Source of the DNA: Devosia sp. 66-22 | Lineage (GTDB): Bacteria > Pseudomonadota > Alphaproteobacteria > Rhizobiales > Devosiaceae | DNA: 64,000 nucleotides | Direction of reading: 5' to 3' | NCBI GenBank assembly: GCA_001899065.1 | Contig: MKUZ01000013.1 | Span: forward strand, 147,923 to 211,922 | In this document: positions 1,956 to 61,948 of the stretch, one piece after another | Layout: every line of letters begins with the position of its first letter | How positions within the stretch are numbered: the first letter of the stretch is position 1 | The notes under the pieces: generated by a model | Told to the model about the DNA's origin: nothing | The model's database searches: none | What the model saw: the letters and a program-made list of their open reading frames with translations, nothing else | Made by a program: the position numbers and the translations under genes

Positions 1956-3299
1956 TTAAGCCACCTGCTTGATCGTGCTGGCGATCTGCTCGACCACCGC
2001 GTCAACCAGTACGGCGTCGTCGCTCTCCGCCATCACCCGGATCACCGGCTCGGTGCCGCTCTCACGGATCACGAGACGTCCTTCCTTGCCGAGCCGGTCG
2101 CGGCTCTCGGCGATCACCTGCACGACGAGCTTATGATCGAGCGGTTTGCCGCTCTTGTAGCGCACGCTGGTAAGCTTCTGCGGCACCGGCTCGAAGCGCC
2201 GGCAGATCTCGGATACGCGCAGCCCTGCTTCCTTGACCACGGACAGAAGCTGCAGCGCGGCGACGAGGCCGTCGCCGGTGGTGGTGTAGTCCGACAGGAT
2301 GATGTGGCCCGACTGCTCGCCACCGACATTGAAGCCATGCGCACGCATGCTCTCGAGCACATAGCGGTCGCCCACCTGCGTCCGGTTGAGCCCGAGGCCC
2401 AGCGTCGTCAGATAGCGCTCGAGGCCGAGATTGCTCATTACAGTCGCAACAATGCCGTTGGCGCGCAGCGTGCCGCGCGCATGCCAGGACTGCGCAATCA
2501 CGGCCATGAGCTGGTCGCCGTCGACGACCTCGCCGGATTCGTCGACGATGATCACGCGGTCCGCGTCACCGTCGAGCGCGATGCCGATATCGGCCCGCAC
2601 TTCCTTGACCTTGGCGCGCAGCGCATCGGGCGCGGTGGAGCCCACCTTGTCGTTGATATTGTAGCCGTCGGGCTCGACGCCGATGGTGAAAACCTCCGCA
2701 CCCAGCTCCCACAGCGCGACCGGCGCGACCTTGTAGGCGGCACCATTAGCGCAGTCGATGACGACGCGAAGGCCCGTTAGATCGATGTTCTTGGGCAGTG
2801 TGCGCTTGGCAAACTCGATGTAGCGTGTCTGCGCCGCCTCGTCGCGATGCGCGCGCCCTATGCCCCTGCCCCGGACGAGCTGCTTGGATAGGTCGCTTTC
2901 GAGCAACGACTCGATCTCGTGCTCGACATCGTCGCTGAGCTTGTAGCCGTCCGGGCGGAACAGCTTGATGCCGTTGTCGTCATAGGGATTGTGCGAAGCC
3001 GAGATCATGACGCCGAGATCGGCGCGCAGCGAGCGCGTGAGCATCGCCACGGCGGGCGTCGGCATGGGACCGAGGAAGTAGACGTCCATGCCGACGGCGG
3101 TGAACCCCGCGGCCAGCGCGTTCTCGATCATGTAGCCCGAGCGGCGCGTATCCTTGCCGATCACGACGCGGTTGCGGTGGTCGCCATTGACGAATTTGAG
3201 GCCCGCGGCCATGCCCACCCGCATCGCGAGCTCGGGGGTGAGCTTGTCGCCATTGGCGAGCCCGCGGATGCCGTCAGTCCCGAAATATTTGCGTGCCAT
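1956..3299 (-). CDS. glmM: Phosphoglucosamine mutase
   Basis: GlmM interconverts glucosamine-6-phosphate and glucosamine-1-phosphate on the way to UDP-GlcNAc for peptidoglycan and lipid A. The 447-residue length is normal. Visible motifs: N-terminal [10 protein letters not shown], phosphoserine loop ISASHNP with Ser102 as the phosphorylated residue, and the metal loop DGDADR near residue 240. The start was set at the ATG at 3299 (MARKYFG), with AGGAC upstream; 54 extra in-frame residues further out do not resemble the family. It lies after ftsH on the same strand, as in most Rhizobiales, but a strong terminator sits between them, so glmM probably has its own promoter in 3300-3489. Confidence 0.97.
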
Positions 3300-3489
3300 C
3301 AACAATGTCCTGAATCGACTTTGCGCCAACTGTACCGCAATTCGGGCAAAAGTCGGAACTGCTGAGGCGCTAGCGTTAATCCGCGTCAGAGAAGGCGCAG
3401 CGGTTTGGGTTCGCGGGTGTGAGGGGGGAAAAGCCGGTCGGCCCACTCTGCCCACGCTCACAGCGGGCTCAACCGGGGGCGGACAAACA

Positions 3490-3514
3490 AAGGGCCGCCT
3501 CGTGGGCGGCCCTT
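3490..3514 (-). terminator. Rho-independent terminator after ftsH
   Basis: A 10-bp stem (AAGGGCCGCC, arms 3490-3499 and 3505-3514) with a 5-base loop is followed on the minus strand by TTTGTTTG. It lies 10 bases beyond the ftsH stop and uncouples ftsH from glmM. Confidence 0.85.
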
Positions 3515-3523
3515 GAACGTCGC

Positions 3524-5458
<1,935 letters not shown>

Positions 5459-19950: not shown

Positions 19951-20520
19951 ATGCTCAATCCTTCAAAGCTCTCGATGGTGGCATTGCTGACTTTGGGCGT
20001 TGCCGCCATTGCCCTCCCCGCTGCCACGACCGGCGCCCTGGGAGCCGTCAGTACCGTGCCGCAGGAGCCCGATTTCCCGGATTTTCCCGACTTCCCCGAC
20101 AATCCGGACAATCCCGATAACCCAGATAATCCGGACAATCCCGACAACCCGGACAACCCCGACGATCCGGGTGACGACCCAGGCGATGATCCCGGTGACG
20201 ATCCTGGCGATGATCCAGGCGACGACCCCGGCGATGACCCGGGCGATAACCCCGGCGACGGTACCGACGTCGCGGACGAACTCGCCATCGACTGCGCCAT
20301 CAAGGACGACCAGCCGATCACCAATGACCTGTGGATCGTCAATGTCGGCACGGATCTCCTGCCGGCGGGCACCAAGATTAGTTGGCGCATCCCGGCGACC
20401 GGCGAGCACGGCGCGTTCCTCCTGCCCAAGGACATTCCCGTGGGCGAGGAGCGCGTGCTGACCGACTTCCTCGCAGACGTCGAGATCGGCTCGGAATGCC
20501 GCATCCAGATCATCGCCTGA
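19951..20520 (+). CDS. Secreted Pro-Asp/Gly-Asp repeat protein, function unknown
   Basis: A 189-residue protein of three parts. Residues 1 to about 32 form a Sec signal peptide (hydrophobic MVALLTLGVAAIALPAA). Residues 40-104 are a low-complexity acidic region: three PDF units, seven PDN, one PDD, then six PGDD followed by PGDN and PGDG. Residues 110-189 are a compact beta-rich domain with Cys115 and Cys183, likely a disulfide. AAGGA lies eight bases before the ATG. The acidic region could bind Ca2+ or serve as an extended spacer at the cell surface. No family is recognised, and no enzyme motif is visible. Confidence 0.75.
   Translation: MLNPSKLSMVALLTLGVAAIALPAATTGALGAVSTVPQEPDFPDFPDFPDNPDNPDNPDNPDNPDNPDNPDDPGDDPGDDPGDDPGDDPGDDPGDDPGDNPGDGTDVADELAIDCAIKDDQPITNDLWIVNVGTDLLPAGTKISWRIPATGEHGAFLLPKDIPVGEERVLTDFLADVEIGSECRIQIIA
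20068..20262 (+). repeat. Tandem 9-bp and 12-bp coding repeats
   Basis: The DNA encodes PDx triplets (9 bp, eleven units) and then PGDx quartets (12 bp, eight units). Synonymous third positions vary between units (GAC/GAT, AAT/AAC, all four Pro codons), so the peptide is kept more strictly than the DNA. Confidence 0.85.
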
Positions 20521-20614
20521 TCGATGCGGACAGAGCTGCCGGGTTCCCCAACCCGGCGGCTCGACCCCCGTCGTCGCCGGTGACAATTCGGCAAGGTTAC
20601 GAAAGTGCTTTGCG

Positions 20615-20646
20615 TTAACGCGGGATTAACTTCTTGGGGCTAATTT
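20615..20646 (+). promoter_or_regulatory. CtrA box and -10 element of a candidate small RNA
   Basis: TTAA at 20615-20618 and 20626-20629 are spaced by seven bases and followed by C, a perfect CtrA box. A possible -10 (TAATTT) follows at 20641-20646, so the box would cover about -38 to -24 and overlap the -35 region, as in CtrA-activated promoters. A start near 20653 is predicted. Confidence 0.6.
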
Positions 20647-20652
20647 CGGAAC

Positions 20653-20750
20653 TGTCCAGTTTCTGGACTTTGCAGAGCGGTTTCTCCCTCTGTTTGACGC
20701 CTCCCTGTTAACTCTCGAGAGCCGCCAGTTCGACGGCTCTTTTTCTTTTT
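20653..20750 (+). ncRNA. Candidate trans-acting small RNA (anti-Shine-Dalgarno type)
   Basis: A transcript of about 98 bases is inferred between a CtrA-box promoter and a strong intrinsic terminator, with no coding frame. It would start with a 6-bp hairpin (GTCCAG-TTT-CTGGAC, 20654-20668), continue with a single-stranded pyrimidine-rich part holding CTCCC twice (20684-20688 and 20701-20705), and end in a hairpin with a long T-tract. Exposed CUCCC motifs plus a U-rich terminator are the design of Hfq-bound sRNAs such as the rhizobial AbcR RNAs, but no sequence identity to any of them is claimed. The alternative is a 5' leader of rcdA with a conditional terminator. Confidence 0.5.
20718..20750 (+). 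terminator. Rho-independent terminator upstream of rcdA
   Basis: AGAGCCG (20718-20724) and CGGCTCT (20734-20740) form a 7-bp stem, followed by TTTTCTTTTT. It points in the plus direction and lies 75 bases before rcdA, too far from the repeat-protein stop (200 bases) to be an obvious terminator of that gene. Confidence 0.85.
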
Positions 20751-20824
20751 GGGCCGGCCCTCATTAAGCCTGTCTCAATGCCGATCCTGTTGGATAGGAT
20801 ATCTCGCCAGCAACGGGCCGGAAT

Positions 20825-21349
20825 GTGAGCGAACCCCTGGACAAATCCGCGATCGCCCTCGGGCCGCGCATCGTCGCTTCGGGCGGGTTCACTCTGCTCT
20901 ACAAGGAGGGCATGGGCCTGATCGAGGAGGTCGCCGCCTATCTCGACGGTGACGGCCGCACCGAAAGCCGTGGCCTGCCGCGCGAAGCGAGCTTCGTCTA
21001 CGCCACCGAATCCATGCGCCTCACCACCCGGCTGATGCAGCTCGCCTCCTGGCTGCTGCTGCAGCGCGCCGTCAATGAGGGCGAGCTCACCGTCGAAAAC
21101 GCCCGGACCGAAAAGGAAAAGGTGAAGTTCTCGGCAACGCCCGACCATCGCGGCGGCCCGGGCTTTGCCGAACTCCCCGAACGCCTCCGGACCTACATCG
21201 CCCAGGGCGACCGCCTGTTCGAACGCGTCCAGCAGTTCGACAAGCTCGAGCGCGGCGGCATCGCCGAAGCCGCACCCGCCGCCAGCGAAGGCTCGATCGG
21301 CGACCAACTGGCGCGGCTCAGGGCTGCGTTCGGGCGGCTGCAGGGCTAA
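20825..21349 (+). CDS. rcdA: Regulator of CtrA degradation RcdA (DUF1465)
   Basis: RcdA is an adaptor in the CpdR-RcdA-PopA hierarchy that delivers CtrA and other substrates to ClpXP during the cell cycle. The 174-residue product carries the family signature YATESMRLTTRLMQLASWL followed by LLQRAVNEGE, within a helical bundle, and a less conserved C-terminal tail (AAPAASEG). Start is GTG at 20825 with a weak GGAA upstream. A CtrA box 195 bases upstream fits the known CtrA dependence of rcdA in Caulobacter, though a terminator lies between. Confidence 0.9.
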   Translation: MSEPLDKSAIALGPRIVASGGFTLLYKEGMGLIEEVAAYLDGDGRTESRGLPREASFVYATESMRLTTRLMQLASWLLLQRAVNEGELTVENARTEKEKVKFSATPDHRGGPGFAELPERLRTYIAQGDRLFERVQQFDKLERGGIAEAAPAASEGSIGDQLARLRAAFGRLQG

Positions 21350-39761: not shown

Positions 39762-39767
39762 GTCCCC

Positions 39768-39925
39768 GCTGCCCGGTGCGTGCGGACATTCTTATCCCCG
39801 GGGCCTTATCGATCCTTAAGGGAGCTGTCCCTGACCGGACCCGTGGGTTCGGACACACGGCGCCCACCTACGTCAGTAGGTTCCCGGGATCGAAGTTCCC
39901 ACGGCCAGGGCGGCACCTGATTTTC
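39768..39925 (+). ncRNA. ssrS: 6S RNA
   Basis: 6S RNA binds the main RNA polymerase holoenzyme and damps transcription in stationary phase. The call rests on position (directly before the fau gene, where 6S RNA lies in most proteobacteria), on a good promoter, and on a long rod-like fold: closing GGTGC/GCACC (39775-39779, 39913-39917), TCGATCC/GGATCGA (39809-39815, 39887-39893) and an apical CCTAC-GTCA-GTAGG (39867-39880). Length near 158 bases is normal for alphaproteobacteria. Ends are approximate. An open frame across it has no protein-like features. Confidence 0.82.
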
Positions 39926-58397: not shown

Positions 58398-60224
58398 TCA
58401 GTTCGGTTGGGTCTCGGCGAGTTCGCCGATCAGGCGCTCGATCATGGAAAGGCCGAGCGACCAGAAGCCCGGGTCGCGCGCATCCAGCCCGAACGGCTTG
58501 AGCAACTCGGAATGATGCTTGGACCCCCCGGCCTTCAAGAGCTCGAAGTATCGCTCTGCGAACCCCTCGCTGGCCTTCTCATACTGGGCGTAGAGCGAGT
58601 TCACAAGGCAATCGCCGAAGGCATAGGCGTAGACGTAGAACGGCGAATGGATGAAGTGCGGGATGTAGCTCCAGAACACGCCGTAGCCGTCGTTGAGCTT
58701 CACGCCCGGCCCCAGGGATTCTCGCGACACGTCGAGCCAGATTTCGTCGAGCTGCTCGCGCGTCAGCTCGCCCTCCTTGCGCGCCGTGTGGACGCGGCGT
58801 TCGAAGGTGTAGAACGCGATCTGCCGCACTACCGTGTTGAGCATGTCCTCGACCTTCTGGGACAGCATCGCAAAGCGCTGCTTCCTGTCGGTGGTCTTGT
58901 CGAGCATCGAGCGGAAGGTCAGCATTTCGCCGAACACCGAAGCCGTCTCGGCCAGCGTCAGCGGCGTGTTGGCGAGGATCGAGCCCTGCGGGCTCGCCAG
59001 CACCTGGTGCACGCCATGCCCCAGCTCATGCGCCAGCGTCATCACGTCGCGCGCTTTGCCCAGATAGTTGAGCATCAGATAGGGATGCGCCGACGGCACG
59101 GTGGGGTGCGCGAATGCGCCCATCGCCTTGCCCGGCTTCACCGGCCCATCGATCCAGCCGCCGGTAAAGAACGGCTCGGCGACCTGGCGTAGCTCGGGCG
59201 AGAACTTGCCATAGGCCTCAAGCACCGTCGTCTTGGCCGTCTCCCAGTCGAACGTGCGGTCATCGCTCGTGGGCAGCGGTGCGTTGCGGTCCCAGGCGTT
59301 GAGCTCGTCCTTGCCGAACCACTTGGCCTTCATCTGGTAGTAGCGGTGGCTGAGCCGCGGATAGGCCTCGCGCACCGCCGTCTCGAGCGCATCGACGACC
59401 TCGCGTTCCACCGAATTGGCCAGATGCCGGCTGTCGGCGATGTCCGTGTAGCCGCGCCAGCGGTCGGAGATTTCCTTGTCCTTGGCGAGGACGTTGGTGA
59501 TGTGCGTGAACAGCCGGCCATTGTCGCTGAGCGTCTTGCCGATCGCCGCGAACGCCGAAGCGCGCTTCTTCTCGTCCTTGTCCGACAGCAGATGCAGCGC
59601 ACCCTCGACCGGCAGCGTCTCGCCGTCGACCTCGAACTTGAGCCCCGACATCGTCTCGTCGAACAGCCGGTTCCAGGCCTGCGCGCCGGTCACCGACTTC
59701 TCGAAGAACAGCTCTTCGATCTTCTCGTCGAGCTGGTAGGGCTTGGCCTTCCTGAGCTCGGCGAACCAGTGGCGATAGCGTGCGAGATTGTCGTCCATCG
59801 CCATCGCCGCTTCGATCACCGCGTCGTCGATGGTGTTGAGCTCGAGCTCCCAGAACAGCAGCCCCGTCGCGAGGTCGGTAATTGCCTGGCTCAGATCGCC
59901 GAGGAACTTCACCCGCGCCGGATCCTGCGTATTGAGCGCATAGCGCAGATAGGCATAGGCCGAGAGGCGCCCCGTCACATCGCCGAGCTTCTCGCTCCGC
60001 TCCACGGCCTCGTACAGCCGCCCGGCCTTGGCCAGGCCTTCGAGCTTGCCCTTGTAGTCGGCCTCGAACGCCTTGGCCTCGGTCCGCGACCAGTCCAGAT
60101 CGCGCTTGAGTTCCGCCGACTCGGGGCCTGGATAGAGATCGTCGAGGTTCCACTCGGGCAACGCGCCGAACTCATTGTGCCCCTTCTGCGCCGCCGCCTC
60201 GGGCGCACGAACTAGGTCAGCCAT
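58398..60224 (-). CDS. pepF: Oligoendopeptidase F (M3 family)
   Basis: A 608-residue zinc peptidase with the active site TLAHELGHGVHQVLAS and the downstream third-ligand Glu in LAETASVFGEML; the N-terminal helical half (EWNLDDLYPGPESAEL) matches PepF. It degrades short oligopeptides in the cytosol. The ATG at 60224 is chosen because the 45 residues further out are Arg-rich and not conserved. It starts 143 bases from a CtrA box on the other side. Confidence 0.95.
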   Translation of the reverse strand: MADLVRAPEAAAQKGHNEFGALPEWNLDDLYPGPESAELKRDLDWSRTEAKAFEADYKGKLEGLAKAGRLYEAVERSEKLGDVTGRLSAYAYLRYALNTQDPARVKFLGDLSQAITDLATGLLFWELELNTIDDAVIEAAMAMDDNLARYRHWFAELRKAKPYQLDEKIEELFFEKSVTGAQAWNRLFDETMSGLKFEVDGETLPVEGALHLLSDKDEKKRASAFAAIGKTLSDNGRLFTHITNVLAKDKEISDRWRGYTDIADSRHLANSVEREVVDALETAVREAYPRLSHRYYQMKAKWFGKDELNAWDRNAPLPTSDDRTFDWETAKTTVLEAYGKFSPELRQVAEPFFTGGWIDGPVKPGKAMGAFAHPTVPSAHPYLMLNYLGKARDVMTLAHELGHGVHQVLASPQGSILANTPLTLAETASVFGEMLTFRSMLDKTTDRKQRFAMLSQKVEDMLNTVVRQIAFYTFERRVHTARKEGELTREQLDEIWLDVSRESLGPGVKLNDGYGVFWSYIPHFIHSPFYVYAYAFGDCLVNSLYAQYEKASEGFAERYFELLKAGGSKHHSELLKPFGLDARDPGFWSLGLSMIERLIGELAETQPN

Positions 60225-60366
60225 ACGATCAGACTTTCGTCGCAGATAACGTCGGCGCGGACCATATTCCGCCCCCCGGGCCCACTCAAGCGGGACGTTT
60301 GGCTGATCCAGAGCCGTTTTCCGGCAGTTTCGGCGGCCGCTGCGGCCGCTGGCCGGCAAAGCAGGG

Positions 60367-60381
60367 TTAAGCCGCTCTTAA
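60367..60381. promoter_or_regulatory. CtrA box between pepF and the sigma-54 regulator
   Basis: TTAA at 60367-60370 and 60378-60381 with seven bases between and C after; the wider GGTTAAGCCGCTCTTAACC is nearly symmetric, so it could serve either strand. It lies 86 bases before the regulator start. No clear -10 was identified. Confidence 0.6.
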
Positions 60382-60466
60382 CCCGGCGTTTTCATCCTGC
60401 TCCGAAACGGCACACCGCGATTCGGCGCCAGGCGCCTGCGCGGCCAGAAACGGCTAGGGAGACTTG

Positions 60467-61948
<1,482 letters not shown>

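Follow-up and report, generated by a model that had tools for sequence, protein, structure and literature searches.

At the locus analysed here, in a 64 kb stretch of DNA from Devosia sp. 66-22 (the window, to which positions refer unless stated otherwise), a non-coding segment with a perfect CtrA box at its head and a putative intrinsic terminator at its end lies just ahead of rcdA. The question that it raises is whether the segment specifies a small RNA of its own or is part of the leader of rcdA. We give a probability of about 0.72 to the reading that it encodes a free-standing small RNA, about 95 nt long and ending at an intrinsic terminator, a member of the Rfam family RF02356, which would be expressed from a CtrA-box promoter and whose CCUCCC loop would pair with Shine-Dalgarno sequences.

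Organization of the locus

The features of the segment and its surroundings are as follows, with the basis of each assignment in brackets.

20615-20629 (+): CtrA box TTAACGCGGGATTAA, 8 of 8 positions, a perfect TTAA-N7-TTAA (sequence)
20641-20646 (+): -10-like element TAATTT, 11 nt 3' of the CtrA box (sequence)
20654-20749 (+): predicted small RNA of about 95 nt, RF02356 / BjrC1505 family (covariance models, fold, helix covariation)
20654-20668 (+): stem-loop 1 (GUCCAG/CUGGAC), the 5' hairpin (fold, covariation)
20672-20693 (+): stem-loop 2 (CAGAG/CUCUG), holding the first CUCCC at 20684-20688 (fold)
20694-20711 (+): small hairpin UUGACG-CCUCCC-UGUUAA, with the loop CCUCCC at 20700-20705 as presumed pairing site (predicted fold, loop conservation)
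20701-20705 (+): second CTCCC (sequence)
20717-20749 (+): predicted intrinsic terminator, with its hairpin at 20717-20741 and a T-rich tail to 20749 (fold, covariation)
20764-20778 (+): putative further CtrA box TTAAGCCTGTCTCAA, weaker at 7 of 8, located 3' of the terminator and 5' of rcdA (sequence)
20825-21349 (+): rcdA, DUF1465, 174 aa, GTG start (ORF, Pfam)

The product of the last of these genes matches DUF1465 (PF07323; E value 4.5e-52), which we take to be the RcdA family. Perfect TTAA-N7-TTAA sites occur three times in the window (66% GC), against 0.04 expected from base composition alone. The other two are found at 1853-1867, just upstream of a minus-strand frame (1100-1837) that by eye resembles outer-membrane proteins, and at 60367-60381, between a minus-strand frame of 653 aa (58398-60359) and a frame (60464-61948) that by eye resembles response regulators of the NtrC type. 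On the 5' side of the segment, the plus-strand frame 19951-20520 encodes a protein that contains an extended Pro-Asp-Asn/Gly repeat tract and for which Pfam gave no match at an E value of 0.001. A 6S RNA (RF00013; 72.6 bits) is located at 39763-39920 on the plus strand.

The -35 region of the proposed promoter would be the CtrA box itself, so that CtrA~P would most likely switch the RNA on, although it could repress rather than activate it. A start site near 20651-20654 would fit this arrangement, and an element resembling TATTAC or TTATNAC was noticed by eye, uncounted, at the position matching the -10 in many relatives. Simple scans of the window reported neither a terminator nor a sigma-70 promoter at the site; despite its absence from the simple scan, the terminator is present in both covariance models and in the folds.

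Family membership and distribution

The segment 20609-20746 is a full-length match (69.4 bits; model positions 1-140) to RF02356, or BjrC1505, whose gathering score is 50 bits, and it is the single copy in this genome. Judged by its sequence, the element is a member of a known Rfam family and not a new one. The family reportedly originates in the Bradyrhizobium work of Madhugiri et al. in 2012. No function for it was found in the texts searched, where the name was met in main text just as a list entry. Within the order (Hyphomicrobiales/Rhizobiales), 166 of 199 genomes have a match at an E value of 0.001, and 139 exceed the cut-off.

The Rfam model has the same core, terminator and upstream box, and begins at 20609, which is 5' of both the CtrA box and the probable start of the RNA. 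Because of the position of the box, and because the conserved RNA begins near 20651, the first 40 or so positions of the model (20609-20650, with the CtrA box and the -10) look like promoter DNA that has been treated as RNA, and the model probably needs trimming. Since a model that contains the CtrA box makes any count of boxes circular, a promoter-free model, R1, was built from 34 sequences. It matches the window over its full length at 20651-20748 with 74.4 bits, a score obtained with the window's copy among the 34 training rows. In a class-wide draw, R1 has matches in 77 of 387 genomes, a few of which are members of the order, and in a genus of the same family as Mesorhizobium (g27) 14 of 31 genomes match at an E value of 0.001. 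Some class-level genomes carry multiple copies, namely G199 with two (L098 and L118), G406 with three, and G552 with two about 200 bases apart. A second, weak match of R1 in the window, at 3483-3570 on the minus strand (22.7 bits; E value 0.0026; GC 0.72) and just upstream of the minus-strand frame 1956-3461, is probably due to chance.

Conservation of the CtrA box

From the order, 91 loci were studied, 87 of them with a recognisable core; loci whose best core had more than three mismatches were excluded (4 of 91 in the order, and 2 of 25 and 1 of 29 in the class sets). A CtrA box of at least 7 of 8 positions stands at a fixed upstream distance in 81 of the 87 order loci, a denominator in which L088, with a false core placement, and L075, cut before the box, are both counted. 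By comparison, 7 of 8 is reached by 25 of 1955 other 110-nt windows from the same order loci, a tally from which L088 was additionally excluded. The window's own copy (L001) belongs to the order set, and its duplicate, L207, was excluded from the class counts. Among the class loci found with RF02356, 22 of 23 have a box of at least 7 of 8, the remaining one ending at a contig edge. The loci detected with the promoter-free R1 have it in 26 of 28 cases; the exceptions are L206 (6 of 8) and L218, whose sequence is cut by a contig end. Of these 28 loci, 26 lie outside the order (the order members are L208 and L209), and the class sets of 23 and 28 loci overlap. All 14 loci of g27 have a box of at least 7 of 8, and all 14 also hold RcdA. 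Half-site positions show one base in 73-100% of loci and spacer positions in 32-82%, a comparison that favours the half-sites somewhat, the best site having been chosen at each locus.

According to the initial annotation, a CtrA-box promoter drives a small RNA that has its own terminator and is located just upstream of rcdA. Sequence, fold and conservation all speak for this, and the proposal also withstood a check by which it could have fallen, the box, the C-rich motif and the terminator all being conserved in relatives. With a conserved TTAA-N7-TTAA box in promoter position, the RNA is a candidate member of the CtrA regulon, and since the box stands in front of most of the relatives examined, it is probably a cell-cycle RNA.

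Fold and the CCUCCC loop

As predicted, the RNA would consist of two 5' hairpins, a small hairpin that displays CCUCCC, and a terminator hairpin. The fold has a predicted energy of -32.0 kcal/mol (z -3.6), and none of 200 shuffles was as low. Across 34 relatives, the three modelled helices contain 11 pairs changed on both sides, against 3.4 in shuffled alignments (0 of 500 reached this), and 94.3% of their cells are paired, against 36.6-55.7% when the helices are slid. Changes on both sides occur in five of the six pairs of stem-loop 1, and 98.7% of the cells of the terminator helix are paired across the 34 sequences. Within the same alignment, stem-loop 2 is misregistered in the three of 34 rows that represent the window's family.

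The CCUCCC loop has an unpaired probability of 0.99-1.0 in the predicted ensemble, and is identical in 115 of 119 distinct copies, g27 being left out. With a looser placement the tally is 115 of 123, and removing misplaced cores gives the former figure; both tallies locate the copies by likeness of the core, which favours the loop, and omit the 14 g27 loci. By eye, these show UUUUUCUCCCUGUUUU, a drifted form, in place of the loop motif and have lost the small hairpin. Conservation extends beyond the anti-Shine-Dalgarno core into the flanks, GACG on the 5' side and UGU on the 3' side. The stem of the small hairpin is unproven by covariation, because its pairing is kept mostly through one-sided changes, with almost no covariation. 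Of the two CTCCC motifs originally pointed out, only the second, within the loop, held up; the first (20684-20688) is present in 4 of 7 same-family loci, and the consensus of 93 relatives reads GGCTCCTGTCC at that place. We also considered, and dropped, a short reading frame that would end at the conserved UGUUAA, since relatives vary there (by eye).

Separate RNA or leader of rcdA

Within the order, rcdA lies directly downstream of the RNA on the same strand at 82 of 87 loci, and so constant a neighbour could point to a role in cis. Among 21 testable loci outside the order, RcdA is adjacent in eight, 480-500 nt further on in two, and absent within about 1.5 kb in 11, which are spread over eight families. 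The test needs at least 1 kb of downstream sequence, available for 21 of the 23 class RF02356 loci (L104 and L117 are too short), and RcdA copies too diverged for the profile could escape detection. The box is kept in 13 of 13 loci with no adjacent RcdA, including all 11 that lack it, and copies with no rcdA nearby retain the terminator as well. Since 11 of 21 non-order loci are without RcdA and all have the box, a free-standing CtrA-controlled small RNA is favoured over an rcdA leader; these sequence comparisons favour a separate RNA with a possible contribution in cis to rcdA. The initial annotation had tied the RNA to CtrA turnover through rcdA, a link that is weakened by these same 11 loci outside the order.

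Ten proteins near the loci that lack rcdA and near L074 could be named with Pfam. They include PF01053 enzymes, encoded downstream of the RNA at three loci, together with an EamA transporter, a thioesterase, and a hydroxyisobutyrate-dehydrogenase-like protein. A gene of the zinc-binding-dehydrogenase family is located upstream of the RNA in L203 and L223, and likewise in L074, which belongs to the order; it looks as though the RNA had remained in place while its downstream neighbour changed.

The segment might instead be part of the rcdA transcript, as a 5' leader whose terminator acts conditionally, an alternative already raised in the initial annotation. Transcripts initiated at the CtrA box would then end for the most part at the terminator, and pairing of stem-loop 2 with the terminator's 5' arm would let them continue into rcdA. 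The position of rcdA in the order agrees with this, and the terminator contains GAGCCGC, with which GUGGCUC of stem-loop 2 (in the window, GCGGUUU) is able to pair. For this pairing the mean z is 1.45 in 81 order loci with RcdA and 1.21 in 17 class loci with RcdA, against -0.32 in the 14 usable of 17 class loci listed as lacking it. However, the mean z is no lower, at 2.01, in the four order loci where RcdA is not adjacent, so that the signal follows kinship and not rcdA. Moreover, the pairing shows no covariation beyond shuffles (118 of 500 attained its score), is missing or weak at a number of loci that do have rcdA, such as L019, L052 and L077, and in the window costs 12.7 kcal/mol (-19.3 versus -32.0). 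The boxed and terminated copies with no rcdA nearby also argue against it, as does the group of Mesorhizobium, where a second CtrA box lies 3' of the terminator. All 80 named loci from Mesorhizobium, Aminobacter and their close kin have such a box, perfect (8 of 8) and between terminator and rcdA, and by eye g27 has it too; among the 87 order loci, 16 have a second box of at least 7 of 8. We consequently regard the leader as an unlikely account of the element.

Still less probable, in our estimation, is that the CtrA box serves rcdA alone, by activation or repression, with the hairpins just ending stray transcription and the RNA inert. It lies within about 210 bp of rcdA, and rcdA is described as a direct CtrA target in Caulobacter (PMC4433202). 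Against this, the near-invariance of CCUCCC would be needless for a bare terminator, and box and loop persist where RcdA is not near. The same source describes that in Sinorhizobium meliloti CtrA binds the rcdA promoter region while the rcdA mRNA is unchanged on CtrA depletion (PMC4433202), which is expected if the site serves another transcript, and the RNA proposed here may be that explanation. In three agrobacterial lineages, according to another report (PMC10469942), rcdA has several start sites, and possible CtrA sites lie further upstream than in Caulobacter.

Search for targets

The CCUCCC loop would most likely pair with the G-rich Shine-Dalgarno sequences of mRNAs and so alter their translation, as the C-rich loop of CcnA does. 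Action in trans, perhaps dependent on Hfq, would suit such a role, and the U-tail is compatible with an Hfq-dependent trans-acting small RNA. In the order, CtrA would then launch a translational regulator whose gene immediately precedes, on the same strand, that of the adaptor for CtrA's own proteolysis.

Two mRNAs were compared with the seed by duplex energy, employing one consensus seed for every genome and 60 shuffles per locus, of single bases and not dinucleotides. The energies were at chance level for both the ctrA leaders (mean z -0.21; 29 of 30 loci usable) and the gcrA leaders (mean z -0.04; 16 of 30 loci, 14 having been dropped where the start-codon rule failed). The ctrA ribosome-binding site offers the loop at least five contiguous pairs (G-U allowed) in 26 of 29 genomes; of 89 other gene starts, 19 do so. 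This contrast is drawn from ctrA orthologues that are not independent and from a background that is a mixed set; the match is suggestive only. In the window's genome, ctrA is found at G000:C13:110282-110953, outside the window, on the same contig and about 58 kb from the small RNA, while the best GcrA match (G000:C30:210689-211243, also outside the window) is reported with one in-frame TGA.

Six genomes of the window's family were scanned for the target motif CAGGGAGG-N2-12-ATG, which occurs at 27 sites in the window's genome and at a total of 80 in the five relatives. Three gene pairs recur between genomes at 56% identity or above, none of them in all genomes. One is thiG-like, one is gluconolactonase-like, and the third is presumably a 2'-5' RNA ligase. 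Many of the proteins whose starts match are solute-binding proteins. An excess of transporters was nevertheless rejected as a target signal because the control motif AAGGGAGG gave as many, with SBP_bac_1 in 11 of 62 proteins against 9 of 59 for CAGGGAGG; this comparison excluded the relative G154 and covered proteins of at least 60 aa, i.e., 59 of 91 for CAGGGAGG and 62 of 83 for AAGGGAGG. Taken together, no target passed a test, either by duplex energy with ctrA and gcrA or by the motif scan in six genomes. That no specific target stands out in the tests made, and that the loop is a generic anti-Shine-Dalgarno, would agree with a loop that mimics the 3' tail of 16S rRNA or titrates a protein and does not regulate chosen mRNAs, but the conserved GACG and UGU flanks reach beyond the anti-Shine-Dalgarno core, and we hold this to be the least probable of the explanations considered.

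Comparison with known systems

Several known small RNAs share single features with the RNA proposed here. The suhB / MmgR family (RF00519) likewise has CCUCCCU followed by a terminator. The RF00519 model scores 19.6 bits on the window, below its gathering score of 41, and has no match in the window's genome at an E value of 0.001. We know of no link between suhB / MmgR and CtrA. Within the same order, EcpR1 (PMC4414408) and GspR (PMC5928217) of Sinorhizobium are described as small RNAs that act on cell-cycle mRNAs. They differ from the RNA of the window in their genes, neighbourhoods and seeds, the loop of EcpR1 being the GC-rich UCCGCCGCAUCU (PMC4414408), and they are under stress or growth-phase control.

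The closest parallel is CcnA of Caulobacter crescentus, for which the source (PMC8959179) describes a predicted CtrA site, as here, an expression that coincides with the accumulation of CtrA, and base pairing of a C-rich loop, CCCC, to GGGG in the leaders of ctrA and gcrA. The element of the ctrA ribosome-binding site that the RF02356 loop matches is much the same GGGG used by CcnA. The two differ in location, CcnA being at the replication origin and the RNA of the window beside rcdA. RF02356 matched none of 14 control genomes, among them Caulobacter vibrioides, a search made with the Rfam model and not with the CcnA sequence. By analogy, the RF02356 RNA would work most like CcnA, which is a likeness and not an established identity.

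In the CcnA report, GLASSgo homologues are listed in several families, with none clearly detected in S. meliloti (PMC8959179), and for that gap RF02356 is a concrete candidate. It is possible, although we think it rather doubtful, that RF02356 is the missing counterpart of CcnA in the Rhizobiales, an old alphaproteobacterial riboregulator launched by CtrA, whose loop binds the AGGGG-type Shine-Dalgarno sequence of ctrA and tunes CtrA synthesis. If so, with rcdA tuning the destruction of CtrA, one CtrA-controlled block would steer both ends of its life, and the presence of CtrA at the S. meliloti rcdA promoter with no effect on rcdA mRNA would be accounted for. The CtrA box in front of most copies examined connects a little-studied family with the cell-cycle circuit that is known best in bacteria, and does so in an order that has nitrogen-fixing symbionts and pathogens among its members.
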